Assembly (NCBI RefSeq): GCF_034522235.1
Contig: NZ_JAXHLN010000003.1
Span: 930,001 to 994,000 of the forward strand
Direction of reading: 5' to 3'
DNA from: Thiohalophilus sp.
Lineage (GTDB): Bacteria; Pseudomonadota; Gammaproteobacteria; UBA6429; Thiohalophilaceae
DNA length: 64,000 nt
The position numbers and the translations under genes were made by a program. Under the pieces are notes generated by a model, which saw only the letters and a list, made by a program, of their open reading frames with translations, was not told where the DNA came from and made no database searches. This document shows, one piece after another, positions 50,230-57,536 of the stretch (the first letter of the stretch is position 1; each line of letters starts with the position of its first letter).

Positions 50230-50427
50230 TCACCGCCTCTGCTGGAGACGCTCAAGCAGACCGTCAGTGCCTGTAATGAACAATATATCACCCGTATTGA
50301 GGATGAAGCGCGTGCGGCCGCCAATGCCCATGCGACACCGGGTGACGAAGGCGAACAGGGGCGCCTGAACCGGATTATTGCCGGCCTGAATGACTTCTAC
50401 GTGCTGGCATCGGTGCTTAACCGCTGA
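50230..50427 (+). pseudogene. start-less 3' gene remnant
   Basis: Frame 1 encodes 65 residues that look like real protein (PLLETLKQTVSACNEQYITR, then IEDEARAAANAHATPGDEGE and NRIIAGLNDFYVLASVLNR) and ends at TGA 50425. There is no ATG, GTG or TTG start in frame after the stop at 50212. The predicted structure is helical. It overlaps the convergent PII-like gene by 11 bases. Probably the tail of a gene lost by deletion; I cannot name the family. Confidence 0.45.
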
Positions 50428-50743
50428 ATTTCACCAGCCGTGTCACCTGAATGTCGGAGATAAACACCACGCCCGAATGCTCGTTGTAGAAGGGCGACAG
50501 GCCTTCGAGTATCGGCTTGACCCGCTCCTCGGGTACTGCGGCGATGATCATGATCAGCACGTCATCCTCGTTAAACATGAGATGGCCTTCATGAAAACCG
50601 TGGCTGCCTTTGCCGGAGAGGTTGTTGATAATGGTGTAGCCCTTGACGCCGGCCCGATCCAGCACGTCGGTGGCAAAGCTCTGGTGTTCGCCGCCCAGGA
50701 TGATCTCGAGTTTTTTCAACGGACTGAAGTTCAGGTTTTTCAT
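50417..50743 (-). CDS. PII-like signalling protein of the DAB operon
   Basis: 108 residues with the PII (GlnB-like) ferredoxin fold order: KKLEIILGGEHQSFATDVLDRAGVKGYTIINNLSGKG, a shortened T-loop with GSHGFHEGH, then VLIMIIAAVPEERVKPILEGL and a last strand VVFISDIQVTRLVKF. The GlnB T-loop tyrosine and its QKGH block are absent, so it belongs to a divergent PII-like group. It begins inside the dabA stop (ATGA). Given that position it may sense adenyl nucleotides or bicarbonate and regulate the transporter; that is inference. Confidence 0.82.
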   Translation of the reverse strand: MKNLNFSPLKKLEIILGGEHQSFATDVLDRAGVKGYTIINNLSGKGSHGFHEGHLMFNEDDVLIMIIAAVPEERVKPILEGLSPFYNEHSGVVFISDIQVTRLVKFSG

Positions 50744-53700
50744 GATGCAGTGGACTCCGTGGGTTGTTCCTGCTGACTGTCGCCAGTTAACGACCGGCGC
50801 TGCCAGGCGTTGTGGTCGTAGATATGGGCCGTGTTCTGTTCCGGGTCGATGATCACAATGCGCACCCAGCCGTTACGCACCAGGTTCTTGACCGTGGCCA
50901 CTTCCTCGATGGCCTGACGGGCATGTTCGTAGGGCGCCTCGATGACGGTGATCAGCCGGATCGGCTGATGATAGGGCTGTCCCTGATCGAGCACGGTCTG
51001 GGCTGGCAGGCCGGTGCGCAGATCGCTGAGGTTGCCGGTCATCACGCCGAAGCGTCCGGCCACGTTGTGATAGACCTTGCTGCCGCTGCCGAAGCGTTCG
51101 TTATCCACGCTGGAAAAATAGTGTTCCATGTTGATCCACTGGCCGACCACCAGCGGGCCGGTGAGGATGCTCTCCAGCAGACGCCGTTTGGGATCGGCGC
51201 GGTAATCATAGGAATGCAAAAACGCACGGCCTTCCAGTGACAGGTGTTGGGTCAGGTTGCGGCGGCCGATGATGAAATAGGCGTTGCCGGACAGGCCCCA
51301 TTCCGGGCGCACCTGTGACCAGTCCATGGCATTGCGTCGGGCATGGTGATTGGCCTCGGCCGGGTCGCATTGACCCGGCGTCAGTTGCAGTTCGGGGAGC
51401 CGTTCCCGGGCACACAGCCGCGAGGCGCCGGTCAGACCGCTGCGCAGGCGATCGAGATAGACCACATGCGAGGACGGCAGCCGATCGAGATCGAACAGTT
51501 TGATCTCATCGGTGGTGGTGTCGTGCAGGGCCGGCAGGAACCAGGCATCGTCGGGAATATCGATCCCCCGGGCACGCAGGCGCTGGCGGACCTGGGACTT
51601 GTTGGCCATCTGGGCCAGCGCGCGGGCATTGACTATGCCCTGATTGCCGCCACAGGCGCCACAATCGAGCGCCGACTCATAAGGGTTATTCTCAGACGTG
51701 CTGCCGTGGCCAACCAGCAGGATAAAGCGTGAGAACGTCCGGTTCAGGCCGATCGAGTGCAGCGCCTGGCTGACAAAGTTGGTCTGCTCCTCGAGGCTGA
51801 AACCGATCCGCCCCAGCTGTTCCCTTTGCAGTTGCGCGAAGGCCGGTTCAATCCGGTAGACAGAGCGCAGGCGCTGGATAAAGGCCTGTTCGGCTTCTTG
51901 AGTCAGGCCCAGTGCTTCGCGCACTGCCGGGGCCTGTGCGACATGGCCCAGGGCGGCTTCACGCAGTTCGCGGACCATGGCGTCGGTAATCGCTTCGGGC
52001 TCGAGCTCGAACTCCTGTTCCACCGCCTTGGCCACGACCGCCCGTTGCACGGCGCGAACGATGGAGTCGGCCTGCTCGCGATCCAGCTTGTCGAGCAGCA
52101 GATGCGTCGGGGGCTTGTCGCGGTACAGGTGCTGGCGCCAGCGGGTGTAGCTTTGCGGCATGAATGTTTTGCCGATCATGTCGAAGCCGAACAACATGCC
52201 GATAGCCTCGACGGTGACATACGGGGTGAGGACCGATTCTTTCAGTTCGTGCAGCACCTTCTCCAGCGCGGTGGTGGCGGCCACATCCTCCGGTTCCGTG
52301 GCGGTCATTTCCAGGACCAGGTTTTTCGGTTTGAGCAAGACCGGACACAAATGGATCTCGCTGCCCTTGCCCAGTTCCATGAAGCTGATGGGAATGCCGA
52401 AGAAACCGGCGATGCCGAAGGTCTGGTAATCCCCCGCGCTTTCCAGGTGACGGCGAATCCGCTCGGAGCGGGTGTCGATGCAAAACAGGGCCTGGGCAAA
52501 GGGGCGTTTGTCGCGCGGGGCCGGCGGGGTCAGATTGACGTCCCGCAAGATATTTTCCATGGCATGGGCCTCCATTGCGCGCAGCCAGAGCATGCCTTCC
52601 TCGCCTTCGAACTGTTGCAGCAGCAGCATCAGCCCGCCCAGTTGCCCGGGTGTTATGGCTTCGAGTGCGGCGGTCGCGTCGGCGCTTGCATCGGATCTGG
52701 CATTGGATCTGGCGGCCAGCTGACGCAGGCGGGTGGCCTGGTCTTCGGCGTCGTGGCGGCGTTTGGCACGCACATAGTCATCAAAGCATTTTTCAATGGC
52801 GGCCGCGCGCCCGCGGGCCAGGGTTTGCTCCACGCGTCGGGCATAGGCCGGCAGTATCGCGCCGCTGTTTAATTCATGGCGTAGCCAGGTCTCCCGGGGC
52901 CGGGTTTGAATGAGGCTTTCCAGCGCGGCCCGATCGGTGGCGATCTGCTGGCGACCGCGTTCGGCGAGCAGAGCGAGGGCCAGGGTCAGGCGTATCGCCA
53001 GAAAATCGACCAGGTCGGCGGGATAACGTTGACTCCAGTAATAATGCTTGGCGTTGGCCCGCCAGCGGATGAAGCCGGCCCAGCCGTGCAGGCGGGATAA
53101 TTCGCGGGAGAAACAGCTGACCCATTTATCCTCGGGAATACCCAGCTCACTCATCACCGAGGCAATCACGCCTTCGGGGTGCGGTTCATTTTCCAGAATC
53201 CGCTCGATATGCAGGCCGCGCATAAACAGCCGGGCGTTGCGCAGGGCCAGCTCGCGCCAGGCGCTGAACAGACCATTTTTGCGACCGGGCATGTGCCAGA
53301 CAGACTGGCCCTCGTCGAAGAAATCGAGACAGCTTTTGATCACCAGCTCATCCAGCTCGGCGCCGATCCCGGTGCCATAGAGCCGGTCCACCGCTTCATA
53401 TAAAGGACAGGTGTCCAGCAAAGTTTCATGCAGCGTCGCCGTCAGGGTGTCGGGATCGACCGTCGCTTCGGGTTGCTCTGTTCGCTGGATAACGGCATAC
53501 ACATCGTTCGCGTCGGCCAAAGACGTGACCCGCATGACCGGTTGGTCGGTCCGGGTAAGTAATGTCATTAACCAGTGCGACAGATCGATGCCGGTGATTG
53601 CCGGCTGCTGCGCCAGAAAGTCATCGATCCCGGCTGCCAGCGCGGCATGCTCCACTTTGTTTTGCGTCAGATAACGCTGGTATTCCCGCCGGGACAAAAA

Positions 53701-53880
53701 GCCCCGCCCATGAAACAGTTGCGCGCCGGTTTCCACGGCTTCGGGAAAGGGGAGATGTTCCAGGCCGTGCAGCGGGTTATGGTGAATGAACGAACGCATG
53801 GGCCAGAAAAACGGAATGGGTTCGCCGGCCACGTAGATCATGGTGCGAATTTTAAGCTGTTGTCCCAATGGCAATGTCAT
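50740..53880 (-). CDS. dabA: inorganic carbon transporter subunit DabA (DUF2309)
   Basis: 1046-residue cytoplasmic/peripheral subunit of the DAB pump, thought to act as a vectorial carbonic anhydrase hydrating CO2 to bicarbonate. The beta-carbonic-anhydrase-like zinc residues are visible: Cys467 and Asp469 in FCIDTRSER, His725 in VGHGSTSENN and Cys740 in ALDCGACGG. The 2- and 15-residue spacings match those known from Halothiobacillus DabA (C351, D353, H524, C539). It overlaps the next upstream gene by four bases and the downstream PII-like gene by four bases. Confidence 0.95.
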   Translation of the reverse strand: MTLPLGQQLKIRTMIYVAGEPIPFFWPMRSFIHHNPLHGLEHLPFPEAVETGAQLFHGRGFLSRREYQRYLTQNKVEHAALAAGIDDFLAQQPAITGIDLSHWLMTLLTRTDQPVMRVTSLADANDVYAVIQRTEQPEATVDPDTLTATLHETLLDTCPLYEAVDRLYGTGIGAELDELVIKSCLDFFDEGQSVWHMPGRKNGLFSAWRELALRNARLFMRGLHIERILENEPHPEGVIASVMSELGIPEDKWVSCFSRELSRLHGWAGFIRWRANAKHYYWSQRYPADLVDFLAIRLTLALALLAERGRQQIATDRAALESLIQTRPRETWLRHELNSGAILPAYARRVEQTLARGRAAAIEKCFDDYVRAKRRHDAEDQATRLRQLAARSNARSDASADATAALEAITPGQLGGLMLLLQQFEGEEGMLWLRAMEAHAMENILRDVNLTPPAPRDKRPFAQALFCIDTRSERIRRHLESAGDYQTFGIAGFFGIPISFMELGKGSEIHLCPVLLKPKNLVLEMTATEPEDVAATTALEKVLHELKESVLTPYVTVEAIGMLFGFDMIGKTFMPQSYTRWRQHLYRDKPPTHLLLDKLDREQADSIVRAVQRAVVAKAVEQEFELEPEAITDAMVRELREAALGHVAQAPAVREALGLTQEAEQAFIQRLRSVYRIEPAFAQLQREQLGRIGFSLEEQTNFVSQALHSIGLNRTFSRFILLVGHGSTSENNPYESALDCGACGGNQGIVNARALAQMANKSQVRQRLRARGIDIPDDAWFLPALHDTTTDEIKLFDLDRLPSSHVVYLDRLRSGLTGASRLCARERLPELQLTPGQCDPAEANHHARRNAMDWSQVRPEWGLSGNAYFIIGRRNLTQHLSLEGRAFLHSYDYRADPKRRLLESILTGPLVVGQWINMEHYFSSVDNERFGSGSKVYHNVAGRFGVMTGNLSDLRTGLPAQTVLDQGQPYHQPIRLITVIEAPYEHARQAIEEVATVKNLVRNGWVRIVIIDPEQNTAHIYDHNAWQRRSLTGDSQQEQPTESTAS

Positions 53881-54635
53881 GACAGGACTCCGATGCCGTA
53901 CAGCCCGCTCACCATCAGCAGGGTTAATGCCAGCGCATAAGCCCCGGTGGTGAAGCGATTCAGATCAATCACTTCATCGTCGCCCGCCGGGCCGACAATT
54001 AATCCCTGCAACAGGCGCGCGCCCGCCCAGCTCCACAATAACCAGACAAGGACGACAGCGACGGCCACAAGCGGCGTGACCGCGACAGCTTGTACCAGGG
54101 TGGCGAGCATGATGAAGAACGTCGGGAACAGCGGTGTGGCGATAATCGCCAGCACCACCAGCACGAGTATCGTGCTGAAGCGGGGAATCGATTCAGCCAG
54201 CCCGCCGTAAAGGCCGGTATAGGCGGCGCCAAAGCGGCGTTCCAGTCCCGCGCCGAGCAGTGCCAGCAAAACCAGGGGCGCACTGAAGCCCAGCGCAAAA
54301 AGATGCAACTCCAGCGCCGGGACATCACCCTGGGCCGCAATCCACAGCAAGGCCCAGGCCGAAGTGGCCAGAAACCCGCTCCACTGCCCCACATCGCGCA
54401 GGGCCAGGGTGCGCAAGGCATACAGGGCAGCGGTGAACAGGGCCAGCGGGACTATCCAGTTTGGCAGGGGACTGTCCAGGGTCTGCAACAGGGTCAGGCC
54501 GATCTGTGGCCAGAGCAGCAACAACACAATGCGCAACAGGGCAGAACGGCTTCGACCCAGCATAAAGTTGAAGCCCACGCTCAGCGGGAACAACGGCAGA
54601 AAAATGCCGATCAGCAGATAGGATCCTGTCTGCAT
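53877..54635 (-). CDS. extra membrane subunit of the DAB operon
   Basis: 252 residues, about seven hydrophobic helices (near 5-27, 32-48, 60-75, 85-102, 108-128, 145-180, 185-205, 225-248), almost no large soluble part. The AESIPRFSTILVLVVLAIIATPLFPTFFIML region resembles the C-terminal part of NuoM/NuoN-like proton-translocating subunits. It lies one base after dabB and overlaps dabA by four bases, so it is very probably part of the same complex. I have no established name for it. Confidence 0.8.
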   Translation of the reverse strand: MQTGSYLLIGIFLPLFPLSVGFNFMLGRSRSALLRIVLLLLWPQIGLTLLQTLDSPLPNWIVPLALFTAALYALRTLALRDVGQWSGFLATSAWALLWIAAQGDVPALELHLFALGFSAPLVLLALLGAGLERRFGAAYTGLYGGLAESIPRFSTILVLVVLAIIATPLFPTFFIMLATLVQAVAVTPLVAVAVVLVWLLWSWAGARLLQGLIVGPAGDDEVIDLNRFTTGAYALALTLLMVSGLYGIGVLS

Positions 54636-54636
54636 C

Positions 54637-56316
54637 TCAGATCCACCTCAACCAGAGATTGAGCCGTCCCGCGAAGGCCAGCAGGGCCCGGCTGAATCGG
54701 GTATAGAGATCGGTGAGATAAAACTCGCGCGAGATCAATGCATAGACTGACAACCACAGCTGGCGGCGGTATTGGCTTTTGTGGTTGCCGTTTTGATCGG
54801 TGAAGCTGATGATGATCCAGCCAAAAATGATGACCAGGGCAATCAATCCCATCAGCAGATCGAACCAGAACAGATCAAAATCGGCCGCCGCATAGATTTG
54901 TTCGCGAAATACCGGATCGGGATACAAAAACAGATCGAAAGCGTGACTGATCAAGGTGTAGCCGAGTACGACCACAGCGAAGGAGAAGATACTCAGCGTA
55001 ATCAGCCGGCGCAGATTCCGGGTCCGCATCCGGTAAGTGGTGAAGATCAGTTGCGCCCCGGTGATCCAGCCGAAGAACAGCAACACGATGGCGCTTTGTT
55101 TCTGGAAATAATCTTCCGCAACCAGCCAGTGGGCGGCCACCAGAATCGCGATCGGGACCGCCAGGGTAATGGCGGCCATCAGCCGCCAGGGCAAGCGCTG
55201 TCGCACCGGACGGCGTTCCACCACGAAGGTATACAGATCGTCCTTGGGCACGCCATCATCCTTGCGCGCGGCGTTGATGATGCTGCCGGCGCCCAGAAAC
55301 AGCGTGCCCTTGAACAGCCCGTGGGCAATCAGATGATAAATGGCCAGCGAGAACGCGCCGATGCCGCATTCCATGATCATAAAGCCCATCTGGCCCATGG
55401 TGGAGTAACCCAGGGACTTTTTGATGTCGTTCTGGGTCAGCATCAGGATTGAGCCAATCACGGCGGTGAACAGACCCACAATGAACACCCAGTGCAACAC
55501 GCCGGAACTGTGCACGAACACCGGCGCAAAGCGATTGATCAAAAAGCCCCCGGCATTAACGATGCCCGCGTGCATCAATGCCGAGACCGGCGTCGGCCCG
55601 GACATGGAATAGGGCAGCCAGGTGTGCAGCAGAAACTGCGCCGAGCGGGCAAAGGCGGCCAAAGCGATGAGCGCCGCGACCACATCCATTAATGGCCAGC
55701 CCAGCACCTGGTGCGCGCCCGGATCGGTACTGATTTGCTCGAAAATCGCCGGCAACGAGCCGGTGCCGTAGGCCTGGTAGAGCAACACCGCGGCAATGAG
55801 TAATGGTAAGTCGCCGATGCGGTAGGTGATCTTGGTCCAGAAGGCATAGCGATAGGCTGAAACATCCCGGGTATTCTGACCGAGCAGAAAATAGAGCAGG
55901 ACCCCGACCAGCTGCCAGGCAATGAGCAGAGTCAGCAGATCGCCGGCGAACACCATCACCAGCAGGGTGGCGGTCATCAGATCGAGCAGCACGAAGAAGC
56001 GGCTGTAACCGATCTCTTCGGCCATGTAACGCAGGGAATAGACATGCACGACCAGACTGATACCGGCAATGACCACGGCCATCAGGGTGCTCAGCGGTTC
56101 GAGTAACAACAGCGCACCGGAACCGAACAGGCTGACGGTTTTCGGACCGTGCCCGGCAAGGACCAGCCACAGGGCGGCGACGGAGATGCCAAAGGTGAGT
56201 ACCGTACCGATCATACTCAGGTGTGCGACGCGCCGTCCCATTCGCGGGCCCAGCAGATGCGTCAGCAAGGCCGAGAGGATCGGTACCCCCGCTATCAGTA
56301 CGATGATCTGTTCCAT
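54637..56316 (-). CDS. dabB: proton-conducting membrane subunit DabB (NuoL-like)
   Basis: 559 residues from the ATG at 56316 (GGTGAG seven bases upstream; a GTG at 56328 is also possible). It is polytopic with 14 or so helices and the antiporter-family core: the GVLLYFLLGQNTRD region, HTWLPYSMSGPTPVSALMHAGIVNAGGFLINRF, and LTQNDIKKSLGYSTMGQMGFM. It is homologous to complex I subunit L but no other nuo gene is here. In known systems it couples cation gradient to CO2 hydration by DabA. Confidence 0.94.
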   Translation of the reverse strand: MEQIIVLIAGVPILSALLTHLLGPRMGRRVAHLSMIGTVLTFGISVAALWLVLAGHGPKTVSLFGSGALLLLEPLSTLMAVVIAGISLVVHVYSLRYMAEEIGYSRFFVLLDLMTATLLVMVFAGDLLTLLIAWQLVGVLLYFLLGQNTRDVSAYRYAFWTKITYRIGDLPLLIAAVLLYQAYGTGSLPAIFEQISTDPGAHQVLGWPLMDVVAALIALAAFARSAQFLLHTWLPYSMSGPTPVSALMHAGIVNAGGFLINRFAPVFVHSSGVLHWVFIVGLFTAVIGSILMLTQNDIKKSLGYSTMGQMGFMIMECGIGAFSLAIYHLIAHGLFKGTLFLGAGSIINAARKDDGVPKDDLYTFVVERRPVRQRLPWRLMAAITLAVPIAILVAAHWLVAEDYFQKQSAIVLLFFGWITGAQLIFTTYRMRTRNLRRLITLSIFSFAVVVLGYTLISHAFDLFLYPDPVFREQIYAAADFDLFWFDLLMGLIALVIIFGWIIISFTDQNGNHKSQYRRQLWLSVYALISREFYLTDLYTRFSRALLAFAGRLNLWLRWI

Positions 56317-56462
56317 GCTGTCTCTCACCTGTTACCAGGAAAAGGTTTGCGTCTCGTCTGCAAGGGAAACCCACGAGCCTGCCCTTCCTGTCTGATTGGC
56401 TGATGAACCGCCGCGTCTTTCAGCAGCGGGCTGGGGCTCCCGCCTCACAACTCAGGCAAGTG

Positions 56463-56500
56463 TATCGGTATCACTGATAGGGAAATATCGATATTACAAA
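56463..56500. promoter_or_regulatory. candidate operator upstream of the DAB operon
   Basis: Two clean palindromes lie close together: tatcactgata at 56469-56479 and the perfect 12-base aatatcgatatt at 56484-56495, flanked by a further atcggta/cgata half-site. They are about 150 bases upstream of dabB, the usual spacing for a LysR-type (CbbR/CcmR) or similar dimeric regulator. No regulator gene is adjacent. By-eye call. Confidence 0.4.
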
Positions 56501-56680
56501 TAGGAATGATTGCTTATGAACTATGCTTGTAAAACGTGCAATGCGTGGGGACATCCGCGAGCAGCGGAAGATAGCCGCCGGGTCAAAATATATCTTCCGG
56601 GGGTATATCGGGAAGCCTGTGCCGGATGTGCCAGGGCGTTGGATCACGGCAATACACATTGCCAGATGCCTGTAACCCCA

Positions 56681-56709
56681 TTGATTGTGCAGAAAATAAT
56701 CATTATTCT
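56681..56709 (+). promoter_or_regulatory. candidate sigma-70 promoter of the barrel gene
   Basis: TTGATT (56681-56686) and TATTCT (56704-56709) each match the consensus in four of six positions with a 17-base spacer. The ATG of the outer-membrane barrel gene follows 35 bases after the -10, behind AAGAGA. Confidence 0.38.
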
Positions 56710-56744
56710 CTTGGAAATTCACCAATAAAAACAAGAGATAAACC

Positions 56745-57536
56745 ATGCGCTCATCCGTCACCCCGCTGGCTCTGTTGCCGATCATTGCTGTTCTATCATT
56801 ACCTGCCAATGCCGAACCGGTAACATTGCCGTTGGGGGCAACCGGTATCAAGGGGACGGTCTACCAGGAGCGCGCCTCCTGGGCCAGAGCCAGGGTGGGA
56901 CTGGGGATTGAAACTAACATTATTGACAAGGCGGAATTAAAAGACTTGGATGGTGAGGTTGAGGGAAATATCAGTACTGTCAAAATTGTTTATTCTGTGG
57001 CCAACAGAGTGGATCTTTATGCCAAGTTCGGCGTTGCCAGCGGATTGAAATATAGGGGCAAAAGTCAGGGAGATGATTTCGAGTTTGATTTGAGGGATGA
57101 ATTTGCCTGGGGTGCAGGGATTGCGGCTGTGCTCTATGAAGATGAGAGTGGCTTGTCGATCATCACTGATCTGCAATATCAAACAGTTCAAGGTATCGAT
57201 TATGATGGTATTACCATCAATGATGTATTTTACTCCAGAGACCAGTTAGGAGGGGCAACAGATGCCGAATATACACAATGGCACGCTGCACTTGGTCTTA
57301 GCTACAAGTTCAGTGGTTTTACACCCTATGCCGGAATAAAGTTTGTCGGGTCGGATTATTCGGCAAATGCAACATGGGGAGGTACAACTTATGATGCCGG
57401 TTCAACTGAGAAAGACAGCCTGGTTGGTGCGTTTTTCGGATTGACAATGTTACCGGCCGATCGGCTTGCCATCGATATCCAGGGGCGCGTTGTCGACGAG
57501 GAGGCGTTCAGCGCCAGCCTGACTTTTATGTTCTGA
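56745..57536 (+). CDS. outer-membrane beta-barrel protein
   Basis: 263 residues with a signal peptide ending PANA, followed by alternating hydrophobic strands with aromatic ends (for example RVDLYAKFGVASGLKYRG and QWHAALGLSYKFSGFTPYAGIKF) and the terminal Phe (SASLTFMF) that the BAM complex recognises. Size suggests an eight- to ten-stranded OmpA/OmpW-like barrel. No specific family or ligand is recognised. It is divergent from the DAB operon. Confidence 0.82.
   Translation: MRSSVTPLALLPIIAVLSLPANAEPVTLPLGATGIKGTVYQERASWARARVGLGIETNIIDKAELKDLDGEVEGNISTVKIVYSVANRVDLYAKFGVASGLKYRGKSQGDDFEFDLRDEFAWGAGIAAVLYEDESGLSIITDLQYQTVQGIDYDGITINDVFYSRDQLGGATDAEYTQWHAALGLSYKFSGFTPYAGIKFVGSDYSANATWGGTTYDAGSTEKDSLVGAFFGLTMLPADRLAIDIQGRVVDEEAFSASLTFMF

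Follow-up and report, generated by a model that had tools for sequence, protein, structure and literature searches.

What would tie the genes of an inorganic-carbon pump so closely to two further genes, one for a third membrane protein and one for a PII-like protein, and what might each of these add to the pump? Many chemolithoautotrophs have DAB1 as the main CO2 pump next to their carboxysomes, and it has been used for synthetic CO2-concentrating mechanisms. The operon that raises the question, dabB-X-dabA-cpII (X being the gene of the third membrane protein), lies in the window, i.e., the whole stretch of 64,000 nucleotides of Thiohalophilus sp. DNA analyzed here. A preliminary description had singled out the four-gene arrangement; the same order has been in print since 2015 for Halothiobacillus neapolitanus, where hneap_0907-0909 and a neighboring gene were given as NuoL, a putative transmembrane protein, a 1046-aa DUF2309 protein and a PII/SbtB homologue (PMC4633670). 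DAB1 has since been termed a three-subunit complex in a 2026 paper (PMC13144422), and a plasmid carrying dabAB1 and the interstitial PF00361 gene, but none of the operon's seven other genes, complements carbonic anhydrase (CA)-free Escherichia coli (PMC7714395). A search of the open-access literature found no DAB1 structure and no biochemistry of its parts. The gene order being already known, what is added here is the co-distribution of CPII with DAB1, the identity of X, the conservation of functional residues and a gene run leading from sbtA to CPII.

Layout and Assignment of the Operon

The open reading frame list of the window contains the four genes where the preliminary description had placed them, all on the reverse strand (Table 1), and their tight coupling was read correctly: the dabB stop codon TGA is followed by a single nucleotide (G) and the ATG of X (+1 nt), and both the X/dabA and the dabA/cpII junctions are ATGA overlaps (-4 nt). 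Translation of dabB may start at GTG 56328 or at the in-frame ATG 56316, the earlier choice, which gives 559 aa. The operon consists of exactly four genes, the PII gene being the last, and is flanked downstream by a convergent gene of the metallo-beta-lactamase (MBL) fold and upstream by a divergent outer-membrane-protein-like gene. A promoter scan upstream of dabB returned three sigma-70-like matches against a mean of 2.5 in shuffled sequences, nothing above chance, and a terminator scan gave no signal above shuffles.

Table 1. Features of the dabB-X-dabA-cpII operon (window coordinates).
Feature	Coordinates	Strand	Description
dabB	54637..56328	-	DAB1-type, 563 aa from GTG; NuoL-like, predicted proton-conducting membrane subunit; PF00361, PF00662, DabB2 match
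gene X	53877..54635	-	252 aa; position of hneap_0908; third DAB1 membrane subunit
dabA	50740..53880	-	DAB1-type, 1046 aa; beta-CA-like zinc subunit with predicted membrane finger; PF10070, DabA2 match
cpII	50417..50743	-	108 aa; CPII-type PII-like signaling protein; PF00543, 5d4n match
intergenic 5' of dabB	56329..56744	-	presumed operon promoter, by position only; shared with divergent gene 56745-57536 (+)

The DAB1 subtype, as defined from PMC13144422, PMC7714395 and PMC4633670, comprises a long DabA (about 1046 aa), a DabB and, encoded between the two, a membrane protein related to PF00361; the window holds all three. As a whole, the operon is very likely best explained as a standard DAB1-type DIC-accumulating complex with its cpII gene; it is real and functional-looking, but ordinary, a conserved example of an operon type already described. 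Families, residues and gene order thus agree with the earlier reading of a DAB inorganic-carbon pump carrying an extra membrane subunit.

Conservation of the Zinc Site and the Proton Path

DabA belongs to PF10070 (Pfam, E 3e-258). With the solved DabA2 (9rd0_A) it aligns at E 4.6e-102, an alignment which equates C467, D469, R471, H725 and C740 with DabA2 C351, D353, R355, H524 and C539. The zinc ligands (Cys, His, Cys) and the Asp-Arg dyad are invariant in 71 sequences (36 DAB1, 26 DAB2 and nine other DabA), so that the zinc residues which the preliminary description had recognized (C467, D469, H725 and C740) are indeed kept. The His-to-Cys spacing is 15, equal to that of DabA2. On the other hand, the Cys-to-His spacing is 258 against 173 in DabA2, and 258–260 in all 36 DAB1-type proteins against 157–190 in DAB2, because of an extra DAB1 segment of about 80 aa between the finger and the zinc His; DAB2 DabA proteins are about 850 aa long and have no such insertion between the zinc Cys and the zinc His. 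AlphaFold2 (AF2) models this insertion as helices around residues 601–690 with moderate confidence. The AF2 model of DabA alone reached a mean pLDDT of 73 and was weak around the finger and the zinc site, and was therefore left out of the fold search.

Glu444 of DabA2 is a residue of the membrane finger and is essential in DAB2 (DAB2 paper). Its likely equivalent, judged by alignment, is E558, invariant in 36/36 DAB1 and 26/26 DAB2 sequences; the distance from the finger Glu to the zinc Cys in DAB2 proteins is 90–100, including 93, which fits Glu444 of DabA2.

DabB, in turn, is a NuoL-like protein (PF00361, E 4e-52, plus PF00662, Pfam) which adjoins dabA and matches the DabB2 chain 9rd0_B. Seven proton-path residues, S249, H253, K303, S309, H332, H336 and K340, correspond to DabB2 S256, H260, K310, S316, H339, H343 and K347, and are invariant in 34 DAB1 and 25 DAB2 sequences. 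Two positions depart from this pattern: the site of DabB2 Lys235 is Arg in 31 of the 34 DAB1 proteins, and that of NuoL E144 is polar or aromatic in DAB1 (mostly His, also Tyr or Phe; the protein of the window has Gln). Since the zinc site, the finger Glu and the proton path are conserved, this pump should work like DAB2; its gating may differ, because of the Arg at the Lys235 site and the altered E144 site. The preliminary description had proposed a test of bicarbonate uptake; DAB2, where studied, hydrates CO2 using the proton motive force (PMF) rather than importing bicarbonate (DAB2 paper). By extension from DAB2 and from the conserved residues, the beta-CA-like zinc subunit DabA would convert CO2 into bicarbonate only while DabB lets protons flow down the PMF, with the membrane finger and its Glu558 completing the proton path. 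DAB2 thus has the zinc ligands, the Asp-Arg dyad, the finger Glu and the proton-path residues in common with the window; unlike DAB1, it has two subunits, no X and, in the sampled class, no CPII neighbor.

The Third Membrane Subunit

An earlier suggestion was to compare X with the NuoL, NuoM and NuoN families. Against PF00361 X scores E 1.9e-4, just under the cut-off (Pfam), and the sole match of its profile in the PDB is NuoM (8e9g_M, 1.8e-7); the profile work on X used the round-0 profile and alignment A2 only, the iterated X profile having drifted into DabB. The AF2 model built from 44 homologues (pLDDT 93, pTM 0.91) matches NuoM/ND4 along its whole length, residues 1–252, in a superposition with their C-terminal half (Z 26–30, rmsd 2.0–2.5, 245–251 residues), which corresponds to residues 223–487 of E. 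coli NuoM. In comparison with a NuoM-type subunit, X has the fold of the C-terminal half, but neither the full length with the N-terminal half, nor both half-channels, nor the Glu/Lys of TM12: the place of the ND4 TM12 Glu is taken by M176, a position with Met in 33/44 and Leu in 11/44 homologues, and no conserved charged residue lies mid-helix among the 44 X proteins, whose conserved charges are at helix ends or in loops. X can thus be described as a half-antiporter without the proton-carrying residue, and is therefore probably a scaffold, most likely with a structural or coupling role in the membrane complex of DabB and DabA.

The same fold could be read differently, with X as an active second half-channel. 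DabB2 is devoid of the helix bundle equivalent to NuoL TM9-13 (DAB2 paper), and X has the fold of precisely that half (residues 1–252 on NuoM 223–487); protons would then pass via both DabB and X, and the H+:CO2 ratio might differ. We consider this unlikely, given the loss of the TM12 Glu in 44/44 proteins and the missing mid-helix charge. Moreover, DAB1 DabB retains its full C-terminal region (222–227 residues after the K347 equivalent, compared with 188–222 in DAB2; median lengths of 559 and 562 aa, respectively) and DabA its finger Glu, and so nothing is obviously missing for X to supply.

Other origins of X were also considered. It is not a duplicate of DabB: its profile reaches only E 0.35 with DabB, but 0.002 with a NuoM-like subunit and 1.8e-7 with the solved NuoM. 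Nor is X likely to be one half of a DabB that has split in two, as DAB1 DabB is as long as that of DAB2 and keeps the region after TM11. A natural DabB-X fusion was sought in the survey loci and none was found. In two loci (L094, 4365-10933, and L095), the ORF after dabA is about 1000 aa long and consists of two tandem DabB-like antiporter domains. The best matches of X outside its own family are full-length NuoM-like genes directly upstream of dabA in about ten other gammaproteobacterial clusters, and X may plausibly have descended from a gene of this kind. These clusters (L118, L119, L121, L122 and L124-L130; about 10 genomes) carry a different DabA of about 1100 aa, with a NuoM-like gene before dabA and DabB-like and NuoM/N-like genes behind it, making up to four antiporter-like subunits; this DabA lacks the finger Glu (0/9 tested), and the clusters may encode a multi-antiporter vectorial carbonic anhydrase.

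Identity and Distribution of the PII Protein

CPII shows ADP/bicarbonate-dependent nucleotide binding, and Wheatley reportedly named it, in 2016, as a carboxysome-associated PII protein. The last gene of the operon belongs to PF00543 (Pfam, E 1.2e-21), and its product aligns with CPII (PDB 5d4n) at E 3.7e-48, with 76 of 104 residues identical (73%) and no gaps, far ahead of SbtB (E 2.5e-4). Given this identity and the distance to SbtB, the gene is an orthologue of Thiomonas CPII (PDB 5d4l-5d4p, 5drk, 5ds7), and not the divergent PII-like gene of the preliminary description; it is not an SbtB either, its partner gene being dabA and SbtB a distant match.

To place these genes in a wider context, 369 genomes of the class were surveyed for DabA, and the genes of the DabA neighborhoods were ordered. 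DabA is present in 83 of them and a DAB1-type dabA in 37. X accompanies 36 of these 37, the remaining one (G163) having its dabA cut at a contig edge, and a search with the X profile also returned 36 genomes; the DAB1 locus of G191 is split across two contigs. The X-dabA junction is exactly -4 nt in 28/35 DAB1 loci with visible flanks and falls within -4 to +4 nt in 35/35, a coupling far beyond chance. An independent genome-wide profile search (E <= 1e-25, a threshold at which weaker homologues would be missed) detected CPII in 37/369 genomes, exactly the set with DAB1-type dabA, with the reservation that related genomes are dependent samples. CPII abuts dabA in 35 of these genomes, lies 914 bp downstream in one and shares its ORF in one. 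The refuting outcome named in the preliminary description, absence of X and the PII gene from most orthologous loci, is therefore contradicted, practically all DAB1-type dabA genes of the class being accompanied by both. Among 398 sampled genomes of the phylum, a single further CPII-like gene was detected (G380, 48% identical to CPII); in this genome, from another class, it stands directly behind a two-subunit DAB without X (L154:1021-5333).

CPII might nonetheless serve the carboxysome or RuBisCO, and stand beside dabA only since DAB1 often belongs to an extended carboxysome locus, as it does in H. neapolitanus. Its name would favor this reading (Wheatley, 2016), as would the presence of CsoS2 in 35 of the 37 genomes with DAB1 and CPII. 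However, CsoS2 was found in 72 genomes, and the other 37 have neither DAB1 nor, at E 1e-25, CPII, whereas every DAB1 genome has CPII. In the genome of the window, CPII stays with dabA in an isolated four-gene operon 579 kb away from the carboxysome locus (CsoS2 at 401 kb), and the CPII-like gene of G380, a genome of another class, adjoins a two-subunit DAB. Therefore, CPII follows DAB1 and not carboxysomes as such, and a primary role at the carboxysome or RuBisCO is quite improbable. The window's genome (G000:C3) also holds two form I-type RuBisCO loci, at 395-413 kb (L157) and 622-632 kb (L158), with DAB1 elsewhere. Probable SulP transporter genes lie near both; in the carboxysome RuBisCO locus (L157), a probable SulP takes the place of DAB1, and a probable CbbR-like LysR gene is present.

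A link between CPII and the pump would also be expected if CPII were a stoichiometric, permanently bound subunit required for activity, and its 4-nt overlap with dabA nearly everywhere, together with a single dabA-cpII ORF in one metagenome-assembled genome (MAG), could be taken in this sense. This reading is very doubtful, as the H. neapolitanus trio of dabB, X and dabA is active in CA-free E. coli without the seven other operon genes (PMC7714395), for which reason CPII is probably not an obligatory stoichiometric subunit. The single ORF (G036:C79, L010:6756-10025, L159; 1090 aa from ATG) has an in-frame junction which deletes about 54 C-terminal residues of DabA, in a MAG with a coverage of 2.1x; it is either a natural fusion or an assembly error, and was not taken as strong proof of binding. 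Of the complex with a regulator of its own that the preliminary description had proposed, the extra membrane subunit and the pump's own PII gene hold, and PII as a stoichiometric part probably does not.

Proposed Regulation of the Pump

CPII is probably a regulator of DAB1 rather than an obligatory subunit; this prediction follows from the sampled class, in which CPII was present only where DAB1 was, and carboxysomes by themselves came without it. The most likely function of the operon would be PMF-driven vectorial hydration of CO2, with CPII as its ADP/bicarbonate-sensing regulator. Regarding how this might be achieved, we hold it an even chance that CPII binds the DabB-X-DabA complex via X and/or the DabA insertion of about 80 aa, and gates CO2 hydration according to the level of bicarbonate and adenylates; CPII would then be a “DAB1-associated PII”, forming a second transporter-PII pair which parallels SbtA-SbtB, and X a gutted NuoM-type piece for coupling or docking.

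The parallel with SbtA and SbtB, drawn already in the preliminary description, is a reasonable one. In both cases a carbon-uptake system is followed by its own PII-like gene, although SbtA belongs to another transporter superfamily, CPII forms a separate PII subfamily of which SbtB is a distant relative, and binding to the pump has been demonstrated for SbtB only. Both pairs occur within one gene run in two genomes (G144 and G257), where the two uptake systems stand side by side, each with its own PII directly behind the transporter. In G144 (L103/L156), one strand carries the cso operon, sbtA, an SbtB-like PII gene, a LysR gene, a CsoS1D-like BMC gene, dabB, X, dabA and CPII; G257 (L098/L155) has the same run from sbtA to CPII as far as fetched, the cso operon being seen in G144. 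By analogy with SbtB and SbtA, CPII would sense ADP and bicarbonate and most likely throttle the pump at high cytoplasmic bicarbonate or in a low-energy state.

The strict co-distribution of CPII with DAB1 and the third subunit as a charge-stripped half of NuoM turn vague annotations into testable statements. If true, regulation of DAB1 by CPII would explain how these bacteria shut off the pump under unfavorable conditions of bicarbonate or energy, and engineers would learn from it which additional gene to include or omit.
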